Below, in pieces: positions 2,373 to 51,313 of a stretch of 64,000 bases of DNA. The notes beneath the pieces are model-generated. The model searched no databases and was not told the DNA's origin. It saw only the letters and a list, made by a program, of their open reading frames with translations. The position numbers and the translations under genes are program-made. Position 1 is the stretch's first letter. Each line of letters starts with the position of its first letter. The stretch is from Clostridiales bacterium (GTDB lineage: Bacteria; Bacillota; Clostridia; Christensenellales; UBA1242). Location of the stretch: positions 62,001 to 126,000 of the forward strand of contig SVIC01000002.1 in the NCBI GenBank assembly GCA_015055515.1, in the 5' to 3' direction.

Positions 2373-2949
2373 TTATAAACTGCTCGAACTTAATCAATAT
2401 TTCTTCTTTGCCAGACTTATTCTTGGCGCTAGACATTAATATGTTGTCTACACCCATAGCTAGACTATTTGCAAGCTTCAACTTGGCGTTATTTTGCTGT
2501 GCTTTTGACATTTTGTCGCACTTTGTAGCGATAAGAATATATGGAATTCTAAAATATTCCAGATAATTCATCATGCTTTTATCTAGCTCGCTTGCTTCTA
2601 ATCGGCTATCTACCAATATACATACTAATTTAAGATCTTCTGATTTAGTTAGAAAATCCCCCAGTATTGTATCCCACTTCGCACTCTCACTCCTATTCAA
2701 CTTAGCAAAACCATAGCCTGGAAGGTCTACAAAATACATATTATCATTAATTTGAAAATAATTTATCAGTCTAGTTCTACCAGGAGTACTACTAGTTCTA
2801 GCCATACTCTTATTGTTAACTAAAAAATTAAGTAATGAACTCTTTCCTACATTACTCCTTCCAACAAATGCTATTATAGGCTTTCCATCATTTATTATCT
2901 CTGCGCCATTTGCTACGCTTTTTACAAATTTACAACTAGTTATTCTCAT
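2362..2949 (-). CDS. engB: Ribosome biogenesis GTP-binding protein YihA/YsxC (EngB)
   Basis: FVGRSNVGKSSLLN, TPGRTRLINYF, DLPGYGFA, ATKCDK motifs. Confidence 0.95.
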   Translation of the reverse strand: MRITSCKFVKSVANGAEIINDGKPIIAFVGRSNVGKSSLLNFLVNNKSMARTSSTPGRTRLINYFQINDNMYFVDLPGYGFAKLNRSESAKWDTILGDFLTKSEDLKLVCILVDSRLEASELDKSMMNYLEYFRIPYILIATKCDKMSKAQQNNAKLKLANSLAMGVDNILMSSAKNKSGKEEILIKFEQFINEE

Positions 2950-3035
2950 ATTAGGAAGATATCACACTCATCATCTTTTGTCAAATCATATCAACATCTA
3001 TAATAATTTAATTAAGTAATTTAGTGAGATACGAT

Positions 3036-3064
3036 GAAAAAGGATGTATCAGTGATACATCCTT
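3036..3064 (-). terminator. Rho-independent terminator downstream of Gly/Cys-rich ORF
   Basis: Hairpin aaggatgtatc-agt-gatacatcctt followed by T-run on minus strand. Confidence 0.7.
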
Positions 3065-3101
3065 AATATATAATGTTAACTATGTGTAAATATGTAGATT
3101 A

Positions 3102-3305
3102 TTAATATTTGTTACCGCAACCGCAGCAGTTTAATAATAACAATAATAGTATAATACTACTACAACAATTGTCATCACCGCCAAATCCCATATTGCAGTT
3201 ACCGCATAATAATAGTATTAATATTAACAAGCAGCAATCGTTGTCTTTGGCAACGTGACCGCCACCACCACAACCGCATCCGCCATGATTATTACCGAAA
3301 AACAT
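3102..3305 (-). CDS. Small Gly/Cys-rich protein of unknown function
   Basis: 67 aa, 11 Cys, two similar CC-(L/I)n-C units; strong AGGAGG upstream of ATG; terminator downstream. Confidence 0.7.
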   Translation of the reverse strand: MFFGNNHGGCGCGGGGHVAKDNDCCLLILILLLCGNCNMGFGGDDNCCSSIILLLLLLNCCGCGNKY

Positions 3306-21947: not shown

Positions 21948-22670
21948 TTAATTATCTAGCAATATTGATACATAACCAGCCATAGCAATACTTGCAGTCT
22001 CTGCCCTAAGTATTCTGCTACCCAATGATATGCTCACTCCTCCGCCTTTTATTATTTTCTTTATTTCTTGTTCTTCAAATCCACCCTCTGACCCAATAAT
22101 TATGGCGATCTTAGACGAATTCTTTATTTTATCAATATATTTACTTAATTTGATAGACTTCTCGCACTCATTCGCAAATAATACTAGATCATAGTTAGTA
22201 AACAACTCAATCATTTTGTCGAAAGCTATACTGTCATGAATTATCATAGATTTACTGCGTTTGCATTGTTTTGAACTCTGATTGCTTATCTTCTGCAATT
22301 TGTCTTGCTTATTTTCACTAGGTTTTACTGTCTGATATTTAGAATGAAACAATCTCAAGTTTGCAACACCTAACTCATTTAATTTTTGAACAATCATTGA
22401 CATTTTATCGTTTTTCACTAATGCTTGAAACACATCAATACACTTTGTTGGATTGTGATCATTGCTTTTCTTTTCCAACACTCTGCATATTGTCTCTCTT
22501 TTAGTAATATCTTGTATCTCACAGATATAATCATACTCATCGTTGCATACTACAATGATTTTATCACCAGTTCTCATCCTAATGACATTGCAGATATGAT
22601 TGTGCTCTTCGCCCTCTATAGATATAATATCAGAATCTATTAATTTGTCTAAGAAAAATCTTTTGTACAT
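21948..22670 (-). CDS. rsmE: 16S rRNA (uracil1498-N3)-methyltransferase RsmE
   Basis: IGSEGGFEEQEI, SLGSRILRAETA. Confidence 0.93.
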   Translation of the reverse strand: MYKRFFLDKLIDSDIISIEGEEHNHICNVIRMRTGDKIIVVCNDEYDYICEIQDITKRETICRVLEKKSNDHNPTKCIDVFQALVKNDKMSMIVQKLNELGVANLRLFHSKYQTVKPSENKQDKLQKISNQSSKQCKRSKSMIIHDSIAFDKMIELFTNYDLVLFANECEKSIKLSKYIDKIKNSSKIAIIIGSEGGFEEQEIKKIIKGGGVSISLGSRILRAETASIAMAGYVSILLDN

Positions 22671-22671
22671 A

Positions 22672-23325
22672 TTAATCCTCTATATGTGATAATTCGCCGA
22701 ATTCCAGCTTGTATTTATCACATTTAATATATTTTGCCAATTCTATATTATCACTCACGATTATACAAGACGCATCATTAGCCTTCACTAGCTTCTTTAT
22801 TTCATCTATTATATATTTTGCTTCGCTATCAGGAGCATCCTTAAACACATCATCTACCAGAATATAATCAAGTTTTCTCAAAGAAAGTCTTGCTAACGCA
22901 ACCTTAAGCCTATCAAATCGACCAATATTCTTCATTTTCTCATCTTTTAATAATTCCAGACCATAACATTTTAGAGCATTATTTATCTTTACTTCTTGCA
23001 TAGGCTTATTTATTTTACGAATCTTCAATACATACTTAAGGTTATCATATACACTTTTATTCTCTATACACGCAACCTTCTCTGGCATAAATCCCATTGA
23101 CACATTGGTCTTGAATAGATCCTTACTTACAGGTAAGTTATCATACAACACTTCACCCTTAAATGAATCCTCTATTCCAAGTAGTATTCTCAGAAGACTA
23201 CTTCTGCCACTTTCTTGCTTGCCATATATAAACATAGTTTTTTTATTTTGCAATTCAAAATTAATATTTTGCAATGTATTATACTCTTTTGTATATGCAA
23301 AATACAAATTACTCACCTTTAACAT
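22672..23325 (-). CDS. ABC-transporter-like ATP-binding domain protein with degenerate catalytic motifs
   Basis: Walker A-like GKQESGRSS, signature-like NIGRFDRLKVALAR, Walker B-like YILVDDVF. Confidence 0.75.
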   Translation of the reverse strand: MLKVSNLYFAYTKEYNTLQNINFELQNKKTMFIYGKQESGRSSLLRILLGIEDSFKGEVLYDNLPVSKDLFKTNVSMGFMPEKVACIENKSVYDNLKYVLKIRKINKPMQEVKINNALKCYGLELLKDEKMKNIGRFDRLKVALARLSLRKLDYILVDDVFKDAPDSEAKYIIDEIKKLVKANDASCIIVSDNIELAKYIKCDKYKLEFGELSHIED

Positions 23326-23413
23326 AATTAATCCTCGCTATAAAATATACTTTATTATACATCATAATTAGAAATAAAAAAAGGAATTGTATAATACAAT
23401 TCCTAAAATTTTT

Positions 23414-23938
23414 TTAATAATCCAACTCTATTAATCCTAGATTGCCATCCGCTCTACGATATATTACATTCACTTCGCCAGATTTAGCATTCAAGAATAT
23501 AAAGAATGAATGACCCAACATATCAAGATTGAACTCTGCATCTTCTATTGTCATTGGCTCCAATTCAAATCTCTTTGTTTTAACCACCTTACGAGGCTCT
23601 TCCTTTGGTATTTCCTCCAAGAATTCCAGAGTGTCTACAAAGTCTTTAATTGCTCTTGTTTTATTCTTTGTACAAGTCTTTACTATCTGTCTCTCTATCT
23701 TAGGCAAGGCCGAGTCAATATTGTTGAACATATTATCGCTCAATACCTCACTTCTGAAGAACATTCCATCAGCATTGATTGTGATCTCTAGCTTATGATC
23801 ATCATTTTGCTCGATGCAATTTACTTTCACATCGAAGTTCTTGTTGAAATATTTCTCCAACTTGGATATTTTTTTCTCGATTATGTCCTTAAAATGACTA
23901 GTAATTTTATAATTTTTAGAAATGTAATTAATTTTCAT
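23414..23938 (-). CDS. hpf: Ribosome hibernation-promoting factor (long form)
   Basis: MKINYISKNYKITSHFKDIIEKKISKLEKYF; C-terminal GHSFFIFLNAKSGEVNVIYRRADGNLGLIE. Confidence 0.94.
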   Translation of the reverse strand: MKINYISKNYKITSHFKDIIEKKISKLEKYFNKNFDVKVNCIEQNDDHKLEITINADGMFFRSEVLSDNMFNNIDSALPKIERQIVKTCTKNKTRAIKDFVDTLEFLEEIPKEEPRKVVKTKRFELEPMTIEDAEFNLDMLGHSFFIFLNAKSGEVNVIYRRADGNLGLIELDY

Positions 23939-24017
23939 AAGTTTTTACCCCCTTACCATTTCTTATAGTTAGTATATCAAATGATCGCATGTTTACAAAG
24001 GAAATAAATATATTTTT

Positions 24018-26531
24018 CTAAATATTCTCTGCCTCAAATTGTAACTGATTGCCTTTATAAGATATCTTGATGACATCACCTTTTACAATATTACCATTTA
24101 ACATTTCTTCTACAATCCTATCCTCTACTTGTTGCTCTATCAATCTTCTCAATGGCCTTGCACCATACTGAGGTTCATAACCCCTTTGGATTAGATAATT
24201 AAGGGCATTTTCTGTTATCTTCAAAGAGTTGCCTTTTTCTCTCAACCTCTTGTTAAGATTGCTAATGAATATCTTTGCAATACAAGTAAGGTCTTGTATT
24301 GTTAATGGATGGAAAATAGTAACAACATCTATTCTATTCACGAATTCGGGCTTGAAATACTCTCTAAATGCAGTAGTCAAAGTGTTTTTTACTATGTCAT
24401 AACTTATTGAATTATCACCAAAATGAATATAGTTATCATTCTTAGGCAACTTATCTACACCAACATTACTAGTAAATATAATTATCGTGTTTTTGAAATT
24501 TACTAGTCTTCCTTTGCTATCAGTCAGCCTACCGTCATCCAACACTTGCAATAACAGATTATATACATCGCTATGAGCCTTCTCTAATTCATCAAATAAG
24601 ATTACAGAATATGGTTTTCTTCTCACAGCTTCTGTTAGTTGCCCCCCATCTTCAAATCCGATATATCCTGGTGGCGGACCAATTAGCCTACTTACACTAT
24701 GTTTTTCCATATATTCGCTCATGTCTATTCTGATAAATGAATTCTCATTTCCAAACATAGCCTCTGCCAGAGCCTTGCACAATTCTGTTTTACCAACACC
24801 ACTTTGCCCTAAGAACATGAAGCTTCCTATTGGCCTCTTGTTATCTTTTAATCCCACTCTTGCACGCCTTATAGCCTTGCATACAGCCGATACAGCCTCG
24901 TTCTGACCAATAACCCTCTTGTGAAGCATGTTTTCCAGATCCATCAACTTATCTTTCTCTTCTTCATCCAGTTTTGTTACAGGAATCTGGGTCCAGTCAC
25001 TTATTATTTCTCGGATCTCGTTATCTGTTATTCTTAATTCGTTGTCACTTATATGTGAAGAAGAATGCATTGCCTTGTCTCTTTCACTCTGTAATTGTAC
25101 TATTTGCACACGTATTTCATTTGCCCGTGAATAATTCTCAGCCATTAATGCATTCTTCTTCTGTGCCTCTAGCGATTCAATTTTATTGTTCAGTTCTACC
25201 ACATTATGTGGCGATCGCATATGCCCTATCTTGATCCTGCTACTAGCCTCATCTATTAGATCAATCGCCTTGTCTGGCAGATTTCTATCAGTGATATACC
25301 TCTCCGACAACCTTACCGCACTGTCTATAGCCTCATCTGTAATTATAACATGATGAAAGTTCTCGAATCCTGCTCTTAACCCATGCAATATCTTGATAGT
25401 ATCTTCTATGCTAGGCGGATCTACCTGTACAGGCTGAAAACGCCTCTCCATCGCTTTGTCTGCACCAATATACTTTTGATACTCTTCGTTTGTTGTTGCA
25501 CCAATAGTTTGGAATTCACCTCTTGCCAAATATGGCTTCAACATATCAGCAGGATTAACTTCGCCTTTGTCGCCTCCCACTTGCATAATTGTGTGAATTT
25601 CATCTATGAATACAATGATCCTGTCATCATTAGTGACTACATCTATTAGCTTCTTTAATTTTTCTTCCAGAGCCCCTCTGTATTTTGTTCCTGCTAATAA
25701 GTGTCCCAACTCAAGCGAGAAAATAATCTTGTCTTTCAATATTTCTGGTACATCACCACATACAATTGCCCGTGCCAGTCCATCTACTATCGCACTTTTT
25801 CCAACACCTGGCTCACCTACTAGTACAGGGTTGTTTTTTGTCTTTCTACATAGTATTTCTATTACTCTAGATATTTCTTCACTTCTACCAATGACTTCAT
25901 CAATCTTGCCCATTCTTGCCTTAGCGGTCAGATCAGATCCTAATTCTTTTAACCCTTCTGGTAGATCAACGCTGTCTTTTTTCTCTTCACTAAAATAGTT
26001 CGGTGTTTCTTCATTCGTAACACTATTATATTCGAATATATTATTATCTTCTACCTCATCTTCCACTTTTGGTATAGTCATATATTCCGACTTAATTAAC
26101 TGCATTAAATTAGACTTTAATGTATTAATATTTGCCTTAAAATTCTTTTTTAATATATTTACGGCATAGCAATCGTCACAAGATAACAATGATACTAATA
26201 AGTGATCAATTGTTACATAATTCTTGCCTATCTGTGAACTGAATTGATTAGCTATTAGAAATACTTCTCTTGTCTTGCTAGCCAACTCAATTGTCGGATC
26301 AACAATAGTCTTTATCTTCTTAGGAGCAGTACGTGCAAATAATTTTTCTAACTTTGCAGTAGTCACATTGAATGACTGTAAAATATTACTAGCATTAGTA
26401 TTTGATACAGACACAATTCCATATAGTAAATGCTCTGTCCCTATTTCATATTGCCCATAATTAAGAGCGATTGCTCCCGCCTTCTGCAAAGCCAAATCCA
26501 CAGTTTCTGTTACATTAAATCCGTTATACAT
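24018..26531 (-). CDS. clpC: ATP-dependent Clp protease ATP-binding subunit ClpC
   Basis: Clp N repeats, two AAA domains (GEPGVGKSAIVDGLA; GQSGVGKTELCKALA), UVR-like motif. Confidence 0.94.
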   Translation of the reverse strand: MYNGFNVTETVDLALQKAGAIALNYGQYEIGTEHLLYGIVSVSNTNASNILQSFNVTTAKLEKLFARTAPKKIKTIVDPTIELASKTREVFLIANQFSSQIGKNYVTIDHLLVSLLSCDDCYAVNILKKNFKANINTLKSNLMQLIKSEYMTIPKVEDEVEDNNIFEYNSVTNEETPNYFSEEKKDSVDLPEGLKELGSDLTAKARMGKIDEVIGRSEEISRVIEILCRKTKNNPVLVGEPGVGKSAIVDGLARAIVCGDVPEILKDKIIFSLELGHLLAGTKYRGALEEKLKKLIDVVTNDDRIIVFIDEIHTIMQVGGDKGEVNPADMLKPYLARGEFQTIGATTNEEYQKYIGADKAMERRFQPVQVDPPSIEDTIKILHGLRAGFENFHHVIITDEAIDSAVRLSERYITDRNLPDKAIDLIDEASSRIKIGHMRSPHNVVELNNKIESLEAQKKNALMAENYSRANEIRVQIVQLQSERDKAMHSSSHISDNELRITDNEIREIISDWTQIPVTKLDEEEKDKLMDLENMLHKRVIGQNEAVSAVCKAIRRARVGLKDNKRPIGSFMFLGQSGVGKTELCKALAEAMFGNENSFIRIDMSEYMEKHSVSRLIGPPPGYIGFEDGGQLTEAVRRKPYSVILFDELEKAHSDVYNLLLQVLDDGRLTDSKGRLVNFKNTIIIFTSNVGVDKLPKNDNYIHFGDNSISYDIVKNTLTTAFREYFKPEFVNRIDVVTIFHPLTIQDLTCIAKIFISNLNKRLREKGNSLKITENALNYLIQRGYEPQYGARPLRRLIEQQVEDRIVEEMLNGNIVKGDVIKISYKGNQLQFEAENI

Positions 26532-26710
26532 ACTTCTATCCTTATATAATATATTTTAGTGTAACACATATTATATTATTATCCAAATCTCTTTGCATTG
26601 TTTTATTTTTGACATATTTTATCTTCTTTAATACTTTGCTATTTTCTTAAATTATATAAAAACATTGACAAACACATATTTTTGTTAGTACAATAAGTGT
26701 AGTTAGAGAG

Positions 26711-26995
26711 GTGAAAACAATGCAAATTAAAGAAAATACATTTATAAAATTATCGGATAATCGTACATATATCGTAGCAAATATTCTAGAATTCAAAGGT
26801 ACAGAATACGCATATCTAGTGAGTTCCGAAAATAAGAAATTATATTATTCATTCTGTACAGAGACAATCAATGCAGAAGGAAAACCTGTACTTAACTCTG
26901 TAAAGGATAAATATCTAACAGAAAGGCTAAAAGCGATGTTCTCTGAAAACATGCAGGAAAAACTTAAAAACTTAAAATTAGAAGATGTAGAATAG
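26711..26995 (+). CDS. Hypothetical small protein
   Basis: 94 aa ORF with RBS agagaggtg and a downstream hairpin terminator. Confidence 0.7.
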   Translation: MKTMQIKENTFIKLSDNRTYIVANILEFKGTEYAYLVSSENKKLYYSFCTETINAEGKPVLNSVKDKYLTERLKAMFSENMQEKLKNLKLEDVE

Positions 26996-27000
26996 AAAAA

Positions 27001-27026
27001 TGCCATGTATTATACATGGCATTTTT
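27001..27026 (+). terminator. Rho-independent terminator
   Basis: tgccatgta-ttat-acatggcattttt. Confidence 0.8.
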
Positions 27027-27045
27027 ATTTACTAATGACACGGAA

Positions 27046-27066
27046 AAATCCCCGAAGGGATTTTAT
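27046..27066 (-). terminator. Distal hairpin terminator (aaaatcccttcggggattttt on minus strand) beyond the tRNA-Leu 3'-end duplicate
   Basis: ATCCC-TTCG-GGGAT hairpin with T-run on minus strand. Confidence 0.6.
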
Positions 27067-27116
27067 TTTCGTTAATTCTTTAGTTTTAATCACATAAATG
27101 CTATACTAGTCGAACG

Positions 27117-27348
27117 TTGGTGCCGAAGACCGGACTAATCAATAAATCAACATAATATAAAAATCTCTACTACACATAATAATCCACTGCAGTAAATGTA
27201 CGCCGTGTAGCGTTAGCAGAACGGTCCGTGCCGGTTCAAGTGAGATTGTGTTAACAATCCATGATGCATTAGCAACATACCGTTCGAGGCACAGACAACA
27301 AAAAAATCCCCGTAGGGATTATTTTTGTTTGGTGCCGAAGACCGGACT
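27117..27348. repeat. 20-nt direct repeat pair (27117-27136 and 27329-27348, ttggtgccgaagaccggact); second copy is the 3' end of tRNA-Leu(TAA)
   Basis: Exact match of both copies by eye; 212 bp offset. Confidence 0.9.
27303..27320 (-). terminator. Terminator immediately after tRNA-Leu(TAA)
   Basis: aatcccta-cggggattttttt on minus strand. Confidence 0.7.
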
Positions 27349-27416
27349 TGAACCGGTACGATATTGCTACCGCAGGATTTTAAGTCCTGTGCGTCTGCCT
27401 ATTCCGCCACTTCGGC
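27331..27416 (-). tRNA. tRNA-Leu (TAA)
   Basis: Reverse complement GCCGAAGTGGCGGAATAGGCAGACGC...ACTTAAAATCC...GGTTCAAGTCCGGTCTTCGGCACC. Confidence 0.95.
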
Positions 27417-27424
27417 AAAATATT

Positions 27425-27499
27425 TGGAGGCACCATTCAGATTTGAACTGAAGAATGAAGGTTTTGCAGACCTTTGCCTTACCACTTGGCTATGGTGCC
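27425..27499 (-). tRNA. tRNA-Cys (GCA)
   Basis: GGCACCATAGCCAAGTGGTAAGGCAAAGGTCTGCAAAACCTTCATTCTTCAGTTCAAATCTGAATGGTGCCTCCA. Confidence 0.95.
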
Positions 27500-27544
27500 A
27501 TATAAATATATATGAAAACAATTAAAATTGTGCTAATTAAAAAA

Positions 27545-27619
27545 TGGAGCGGAAGACGAGATTCGAACTCGCGACATTCGCCTTGGCAAGGCGACGCTCT
27601 ACCACTGAGCCACTCCCGC
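27545..27619 (-). tRNA. tRNA-Gly (GCC)
   Basis: GCGGGAGTGGCTCAGTGGTAGAGCGTCGCCTTGCCAAGGCGAATGTCGCGAGTTCGAATCTCGTCTTCCGCTCCA. Confidence 0.95.
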
Positions 27620-27677
27620 ATAATTGGTTTATTAAATATTATAGCCTGCTCCGACGAACAGGCCAATAATAGTATTG

Positions 27678-27753
27678 TGGTGGAAGTTATAGGACTCGAA
27701 CCTATGACCCTCTGCTTGTAAGGCAGATGCTCTACCAACTGAGCTAAACTTCC
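27678..27753 (-). tRNA. tRNA-Val (TAC)
   Basis: GGAAGTTTAGCTCAGTTGGTAGAGCATCTGCCTTACAAGCAGAGGGTCATAGGTTCGAGTCCTATAACTTCCACCA. Confidence 0.95.
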
Positions 27754-27945
27754 ATATGCAATCTCTATCGAATGCTCTATTAATATAACAAATAAATTCT
27801 ACAAATGCAAGTGTTTTTTATAATTTTTTCAAAAAAAATTAAATTTTTTTATTTTTTATTTTACTTACATAAAAAATATAAAATAATTGCACCGAAGTAT
27901 CTCAAATTATTTGACTATATATGCATTTTGAGTATTATATGTAAT

Positions 27946-28593
27946 ATGGAAAGAGATAAAAAATTTTATTATATATTTATTAATATTAAAGGCGCATTAT
28001 ATACCGCCGATTGGATTAAATTCACGCAAAGTGCTGTAATGGCAGAAGAAGACCATGAATACACTAAAACTGTACATAGCATGCTAGAAAAACATCCCGA
28101 ATGGAACAGCTATTACAAGACTAGAATGTATATGAGGTCAAAACATATCCGAAAGATATGCCCATATAATGTTGAAGCACTGAATACTTTGATCGATGAA
28201 CTAAGCGACAACTATGATATTAATCTAGTGGTAACATCTCACAAGTGGAAAGAACTATTCGATATAAAGACTATTCCTGCATTGGTTAAGAACGGCCTAG
28301 ATTATAACCATATAGTACTAGATAAGACAGATACTCGCATAGAAGATACTACAAAGGGTATAAAAGACTATTTGGCACAGGTAGGCAATCCAAGCAATTA
28401 CCTTGTAATAGATTATCAAAAAGAATTAGAAGATTCATTTCCTAGCGACAAATTAATTTTGTGTGAAGAAAGAAAGAGTGGGCTAAACGAAGAACTGGTA
28501 AATCTATACTTGCATAATTCATCAGCAATAGACGGTTCCGTTGTTACTTCAAATGCCTCAATGGATTATGATGCAGAATATGAATTGGTATAA
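27946..28593 (+). CDS. HAD-like fold protein with substituted catalytic motif (hypothetical)
   Basis: MERDKKFYYIFINIKGALYT... (NIKG at DxDG position), VVTSHKW, NYLVIDYQ; the longer ORF from 27805 has a low-complexity A/T-rich N-terminus that is probably untranslated. Confidence 0.55.
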   Translation: MERDKKFYYIFINIKGALYTADWIKFTQSAVMAEEDHEYTKTVHSMLEKHPEWNSYYKTRMYMRSKHIRKICPYNVEALNTLIDELSDNYDINLVVTSHKWKELFDIKTIPALVKNGLDYNHIVLDKTDTRIEDTTKGIKDYLAQVGNPSNYLVIDYQKELEDSFPSDKLILCEERKSGLNEELVNLYLHNSSAIDGSVVTSNASMDYDAEYELV

Positions 28594-51060: not shown

Positions 51061-51251
51061 GTGGTGCGGATGAGAGGACTTGTCTATTGAACGACAGTTC
51101 AATACTTCGGGTGGCAGTATTAACTGACGGGGTCCCGAATACAGTTCAAGTCACAATGCTACAGCATTGTTATTGCGACAGCAATTCTCATCTAGACACA
51201 AAAAAACCTCGGTGAAACTGAGGCTATTAGTGGTGCGGATGAGAGGACTTG
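51061..51251. repeat. 22-nt direct repeat pair (51061-51082 and 51230-51251, gtggtgcggatgagaggacttg); second copy is the 3' end of tRNA-Leu(TAG)
   Basis: Exact match of both copies; 169 bp offset. Confidence 0.9.
51201..51226 (-). terminator. Terminator immediately after tRNA-Leu(TAG)
   Basis: minus strand GCCTCAG-TTTCA-CCGAGGTTTTTTT. Confidence 0.75.
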
Positions 51252-51313
51252 AACCCCCACTCTTTCGAACTAGATCCTAAGTCTAGCGCGTCTGCCAATT
51301 TCGCCACATCCGC
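51231..51313 (-). tRNA. tRNA-Leu (TAG)
   Basis: GCGGATGTGGCGAAATTGGCAGACGCGCTAGACTTAGGATCTAG...GGGGGTTCAAGTCCTCTCATCCGCACCA. Confidence 0.95.

Follow-up and report, generated by a model that had tools for sequence, protein, structure and literature searches.

Two described systems come closest to the locus considered here. Genomic islands residing in tRNA genes (tDNA islands) have as their hallmark a direct repeat that restores the tRNA (PMC4383910), and in integron cassettes a folded DNA strand carries the recombination site (PMC3053210). The present analysis concerns two short elements behind tRNA-Leu genes, near 27 and 51 kb of a stretch of 64,000 nucleotides (hereafter the window; G000:C5:62001-126000), together with their counterparts elsewhere. 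The window belongs to a metagenome-assembled genome (MAG) of gut Clostridia type, 1.07 Mb in size and 92% complete. We put at about one half the probability that these elements represent an undescribed family of minimal non-coding elements whose integration, by way of a folded strand, is specific for the site C56/R57 in T-loops of tRNA and transfer-messenger RNA (tmRNA) genes.

Anatomy of the units

Both elements reported by the first-pass annotation were found directly downstream of cluster-terminal tRNA-Leu genes on the minus strand, with anticodons taa and tag. On its far side each ends at another copy of the tRNA 3' end (27118-27137, 19/20 identical, and 51062-51081, 20/20 identical), and they are therefore insertions of about 212 bp (Leu-taa) and 169 bp (Leu-tag). 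In the direction of the tRNA the order of a unit is ...GGTTC/RANTCC...CCA, terminator, right guide, hairpins hp1 and hp2, left guide, core, and RANTCC...CCA, where the right guide is antisense to the 3' strand of the T-stem plus acceptor, the left guide is antisense to GGTTCRA, and each arm comprises about 6-14 nt. What had been taken for separate pairing segments is one antisense copy of T-arm and acceptor, interrupted at the T-loop by hp1 and hp2. Units typically measure 110-220 bp, are non-coding and often stand in tandem. The block of repeat identity starts sharply at C56 (12/45 mismatches there versus 40/45 one base upstream), and two hairpins lie between the guide arms in 27/32 elements versus 2.5% of shuffles, their positions being kept while their sequences change, as had been proposed. 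Folding joins the tRNA end and the guides in one long duplex, and hp1 and hp2 at the T-loop complete a four-way junction.

On the plus strand both window elements run from a T-loop-like motif (GGTTCAAGT, 27233-27241; AGTTCAAGT, 51143-51151) through two hairpins and an acceptor/T-stem segment to an A-run/terminator and the tRNA end. In the 51 kb element the host tRNA-Leu(tag) (51231-51313, minus strand) contributes its last 20-21 nt (51231-51251, C56 to A76) as the element-proximal repeat copy, and its terminator hairpin with T-run (51200-51223, minus strand), missed by the pattern scan and recognised by manual reading, lies within the repeat unit. The plus strand then carries the right guide TCTCATC (51186-51192), identical to the acceptor/T-stem 3' strand of the tRNA and thus antisense to that strand if read on the minus strand; hp1, TTGC-GACA-GCAA, with a GNNA loop (51173-51184); hp2, ACAATGC-TACA-GCATTGT (51153-51170); and the left guide AGTTCAAGT, identical to the T-loop strand. 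Core helices P1 (TTCGGG/CCCGAA) and P2 (CAGT/ACTG) form the sequence-conserved part of the subfamily (51106-51139, plus), and core hairpin P3, ATTGAAC-GACA-GTTCAAT (51086-51103, plus), adjoins the insertion's far boundary, i.e. the distal tRNA copy, which starts at C56 (51062-51082, minus). The 27 kb element follows tRNA-Leu(taa) (27330-27416, minus strand; last 20-21 nt forming the proximal copy) and its terminator hairpin with T-run (27300-27321, minus; manual reading), after which come on the plus strand the right guide CCGTTCGAGGCAC (27280-27292), hp1, ATG-A-TGC-ATTA-GCA-A-CAT (27261-27278), hp2, GATTGT-GTTA-ACAATC (27244-27259), the left guide GTGCCGGTTCAAG (27228-27240) and a core of another subfamily (27139-27227), with the distal copy on the minus strand.

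The core of the 51 kb subfamily reads YTCGGG-NCCC-GTC-hairpin-CCACCCGAR-hairpin and shows covariation in 56 cells versus 16 shuffled; other subfamilies combine the same frame with unrelated cores. Of the two window elements, covariance models R1 and R2, built on this core, match the 51 kb one only, so that the kinship suggested at first lies more in the architecture of the pair than in the sequence of their cores. The shared AGACA(a)CAAAAAAA noted at that stage consists for the most part of the terminator A-run and does not recur constantly in other copies. Elsewhere in the window, beside the Leu-Cys-Gly-Val tRNA cluster, an open reading frame of 262 amino acids (27805-28593) has a weak, sub-threshold Pfam match to HAD_SAK_2, an RNA-repair-type HAD domain.

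Occupied tRNA genes in the source genome and its relatives

Units of the source genome were collected by DNA and covariance searches and by reading all tRNA flanks. They are found at 16/20 cluster-terminal tRNAs, which turns the cluster-terminal position noticed for the first two elements into a rule, and occupy Leu taa/tag/cag/caa, Ser gga/gct/tga/cga, Glu ctc/ttc, Asn, Ile, Thr cgt, Gln ctg, Met and Arg tcg genes. The Trp, Tyr and Lys-ctt flanks of this genome carry no unit and Thr-ggt carries a remnant at most. The tRNAs inside its clusters are free of units, as would fit a unit terminator silencing the tRNAs downstream. Related genomes have elements at Ser, Leu, Glu, Asn, Gln, Gly, Arg, Thr, Met, Ile and Val tRNAs and at tmRNA. 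Since so many other tRNA species are occupied, the pairing of two Leu sites in the window is a coincidence, and the idea of a Leu-specific feature had to be given up.

Tandem units occur at 13 tRNAs. Four nearly identical ones, one of them partly N-masked (assembly gap), stand behind a tRNA-Met (L058:1385-2200), and units directly follow the tmRNA (ssrA) 3' ends of two related genomes (L042:1400-1760, in tandem; L060:1400-1720). Model R1 finds its core in 8/13 genomes of the genus including the source (7/12 others) and in one other genus, and R2, run over 397 genomes of the order, in the source genome and one relative only; the core is therefore lineage-specific and the architecture wider. Barring two chance coding matches, the core pattern in the named genome collection is confined to gut Clostridia MAGs, in which all 13 loci of the 51 kb subfamily core read as lying behind a tRNA 3' end. 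Joined to other cores, the frame itself is also seen in further genera of the family (Thr-cgt of G047, with further tandem units; Met of G013) and, as a variant, in a second family of the order (Val-cac of G074); the flanks of G073 and G029 look plain. Presence is patchy even at one locus: at the orthologous Leu-tag site five relatives lack the element, one has a truncated copy and one an element with a different type of core. Chance or artefact is ruled out, the layout being common to independent MAGs from several hosts and studies.

Some arrangements depart from the usual unit. Behind tRNA-Arg(tcg), whose T-loop GGGTTAGAGTCC is unusual, two cores in the same orientation lie about 1 kb apart (L027:3023-4215; G000:C16 about 27022-28214) and flank a GNAT acetyltransferase-like gene and a degenerate tRNA-Arg, possibly a gene-bearing variant; its distal tRNA ends resemble those of other tRNAs. 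The Thr-cgt (L019:2049-2180) and Ala/Ile (L021 about 2600-3121) flanks contain GTTCGCTTCGCTC-type sequences, GAGCGAAGCGAAC on the other strand, which includes the DNA mini-hairpin GCGAAGC; copies of tRNA ends are present, with no clear guide at Thr-cgt.

Guides, proposed folded strands and competing explanations

The claim that element segments match the host tRNA specifically was borne out by a two-arm complementarity score computed against 31 tRNAs for the 38 units with a clean distal copy; it replaced a simple duplex-energy ranking, uninformative because a four-way junction is beyond its treatment. The cognate tRNA ranks first of 31 in 19/38 units (p 9e-19) and among the top three in 25/38, where p-values, here and below, are too small because units from one genome are not independent samples. 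The window elements rank their cognates 2nd and 4th and would therefore not convince alone. Flanks without a distal copy give mostly random-looking ranks, several exceptions being units with a decayed one. Guides prefer the tRNA over the distal copy 48:1, a ratio partly due to construction, to which we give no evidential weight.

Hairpin loops of the type TNC/TNNC on the tRNA strand, that is GNA/GNNA on the antisense strand, characterise the units: 39 GNA/GNNA loops are antisense versus 3 sense (p 6e-9). GNA loops make up 23/52 and GNNA loops 16/45 in unit hairpins versus 5/89 and 1/72 in controls and 0/8 and 0/16 in terminators; hairpins from element-free flanks have no strand bias, and terminators lack GNA/GNNA on the antisense strand. 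Loops of these two types are known from DNA mini-hairpins of exceptional stability (PMC4686876), with the reservation that most unit GNA loops are closed by T-A and not by the classic C-G pair. Folded as single-stranded DNA (ssDNA), the plus (antisense) strand of the 51 kb element does better, with a z of -6.6 versus -5.1. The strand-biased, DNA-type loops point to a folded ssDNA intermediate.

The units might be internally deleted remnants or satellites of ordinary tRNA-targeting islands or phages. In that case they would have double-stranded attL/attR sites around a shrunken interior, a tyrosine integrase of the conventional kind would have inserted them, and the integrase or a factor would bind at the inverted T-arm and the hairpins. 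This reading would explain the tRNA-restoring repeat so typical of tDNA islands, and an inovirus-type prophage with a tyrosine integrase does occupy the same T-loop of tRNA-Glu(ttc) in the source genome. We nevertheless find it unlikely: deletion scars are not expected to share a constant layout, small size and several core subfamilies across more than 10 tRNA species, nor to have tRNA-following guides and strand-biased loops; no large parental element with the same ends was seen; and the inovirus attR retains GGTTC, which the mini-elements do not.

Quite improbable is an RNA device, in which antisense or readthrough RNA would pair with the tRNA 3' half and control tRNA maturation or abundance. 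Guides pairing with the tRNA, a covarying conserved structure and the constant position beside tRNAs agree with it, but the tRNA-strand part sits beyond the terminator, a pattern scan found no antisense promoter-like match beside the distal end of the 51 kb element, and both the tandem arrays and the second tRNA-end copy are left unexplained. Besides, guide mismatches (G-T 8, A-C 8) have no RNA-type wobble excess and the loops are GNA/GNYA, not GNRA (GNYA versus GNRA 11:5, unlike RNA tetraloops), which favours DNA over RNA. Neither of the refuting outcomes named by the first-pass annotation came about: homologues proved plentiful and, in line with the initial failure to recognise a described family, an Rfam 15 covariance search returned tRNAs alone above gathering scores. 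A T-box-like reading of GGGTGGCA...GTCCC was dropped, having no Rfam match and an un-RNA-like wobble and loop pattern.

Least probable is repeat-driven copying that needs no dedicated enzyme, in which fold-back synthesis or a template switch at the hairpin of the terminator would have produced inverted copies, and homologous recombination between tRNA ends would have spread and duplicated them. Although a tRNA followed by its terminator hairpin and then by an inverted tRNA end is what fold-back synthesis would leave, unequal exchange can create tandem arrays and guide mismatches are strand-neutral, the inverted copy begins within the acceptor without a CCA complement, and the shared conserved core and exactly two loop-biased hairpins require another origin and selection.

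The first-pass annotation had argued for function or a specific copying mechanism over chance; non-chance stands, and insertion is preferred to both because of the direct repeats of tRNA 3' ends, the tandem units, presence/absence between species and the strand-specific, ssDNA-type hairpins. Putative mobility is supported by the direct repeats, tandem units, four-unit array and patchy occupancy of the Leu-tag locus. On insertion a unit would supply a replacement tRNA 3' end and terminator, leaving the old 3' end as the far border, so that the tRNA would stay functional. Its antisense strand is predicted to fold as ssDNA so that the target site is reproduced as a duplex, from which two mini-hairpins project at the crossover to give the four-way junction. 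The units are probably non-autonomous, being moved in trans by a recombinase, most likely of tyrosine type, that would recognise the folded strand and exchange one strand with the T-arm target, somewhat like integron integrases acting on the folded attC bottom strand. An element would be directed to its own tRNA by complementarity to the target; occasional jumps to other tRNAs would be possible because the T-loop (GTTCRA) is universally conserved, and guide arms would then re-adapt. For the 51 kb unit the expected excised junction is ...CAATAGAC joined to AAGTCCTCTCATCCGCACCA-CTAATAGCC. Whether all this amounts to a new class of mobile DNA, geneless units choosing their site by DNA-DNA pairing at the tRNA T-loop and borrowing a recombinase, is a more doubtful proposition, which we advance tentatively.

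Several points weigh against site-specific insertion through a folded strand. No clean empty-site pair was found among the relatives examined, as their distal flanks are too diverged; the left half-site GGTTC would be missing from a circular form, for which a conventional attP cannot therefore be drawn; guides are weak or absent in the Thr-cgt, Arg-tcg and Ser-gct units; and the support is sequence analysis, drawn from MAGs throughout. The co-occurring tyrosine recombinase suggested by the annotation did not emerge as a dedicated gene: the source genome has only two such enzymes, neither within a unit. One is XerS-like, neighbours a LexA-like gene and has counterparts in most relatives; the other is the inovirus-type integrase. 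The prophage-like element encoding the latter (about 6.2 kb; L018:3230-9485, G000:C3 about 22229-28484) lies between tRNA-Glu(ttc) and a mini-element. Its genes comprise the tyrosine integrase, a Rep-like HxH-motif protein, small membrane/coat-like proteins and a presumed Zot-like NTPase; of the proteins scanned, Pfam/NCBIfam recognise the integrase only.

Should the proposal be correct, the tRNA gene set of a gut bacterial lineage would be densely populated by integrative elements that rank among the smallest seen so far, and a non-coding element that retargets among tRNAs by base pairing would offer a DNA-guided integration system to study. Repeats of tRNA ends of this type can mislead island detection and MAG assembly.

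Comparison with known systems

The literature covered, which leaves out most subscription journals, contains no description of such elements, and no carrier of the core was found among viral, phage and plasmid sequences. The genes that would make bridge RNA, a Y1 transposase or a reverse transcriptase the resident driver were searched for and not found in the source assembly, which is 92% complete. Like IS200/IS605 and REP/RAYT elements, the units combine ssDNA hairpins with short guides pairing with the target; unlike them, they have tRNA-matched guides and carry a tRNA 3' end, and Y1 HUH transposase is absent from the source genome and from the element-rich G006, being present in 5/13 genomes of the genus. 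Reverse transcriptase is likewise missing from the 92% complete source assembly. The bridge RNA of IS110 resembles the units in that an element-encoded guide matches target sequence to either side of the point of insertion; here, however, both arms pair with the same strand, the hairpin loops are DNA-like, and an IS110 DEDD transposase occurs in 0/13 genus genomes. As regards casposons, no terminal inverted repeats were seen in the units; cas1 was not searched for.

CTX-type filamentous phage integrates as folded ssDNA through the host Xer. A host recombinase acting on a folded strand would suit a genome with only an XerS-like enzyme and an inovirus, but the units target tRNA and not dif and lie far below phage size.

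With integron cassettes and their attC sites the units share small size, tandem arrangement, conservation of structure over sequence, a putative one-strand fold and protruding features near the crossover; they differ in being non-coding, in having a tRNA T-arm as target and in that no platform was found. Both tyrosine recombinases of the source assembly score far below integron integrase cut-offs, and the attC boxes R' GTTRRRY and R'' RYYYAAC are both present in 1/50 elements versus 1.5 expected, so that they are not enriched and attC membership is rejected. Similarly to tDNA islands (Islander type), the units lie inside a tRNA or tmRNA gene, restore its 3' end and have the displaced fragment as far border; unlike islands, they are geneless, without an integrase, at the short lengths given above, contain an antisense target copy with two hairpins and occupy most cluster-terminal tRNAs. 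Because a defining feature of each fails, we file the units under neither heading; they work most like a mix of the two, with the border logic of a tDNA island and, putatively, the folded strand of an integron cassette.
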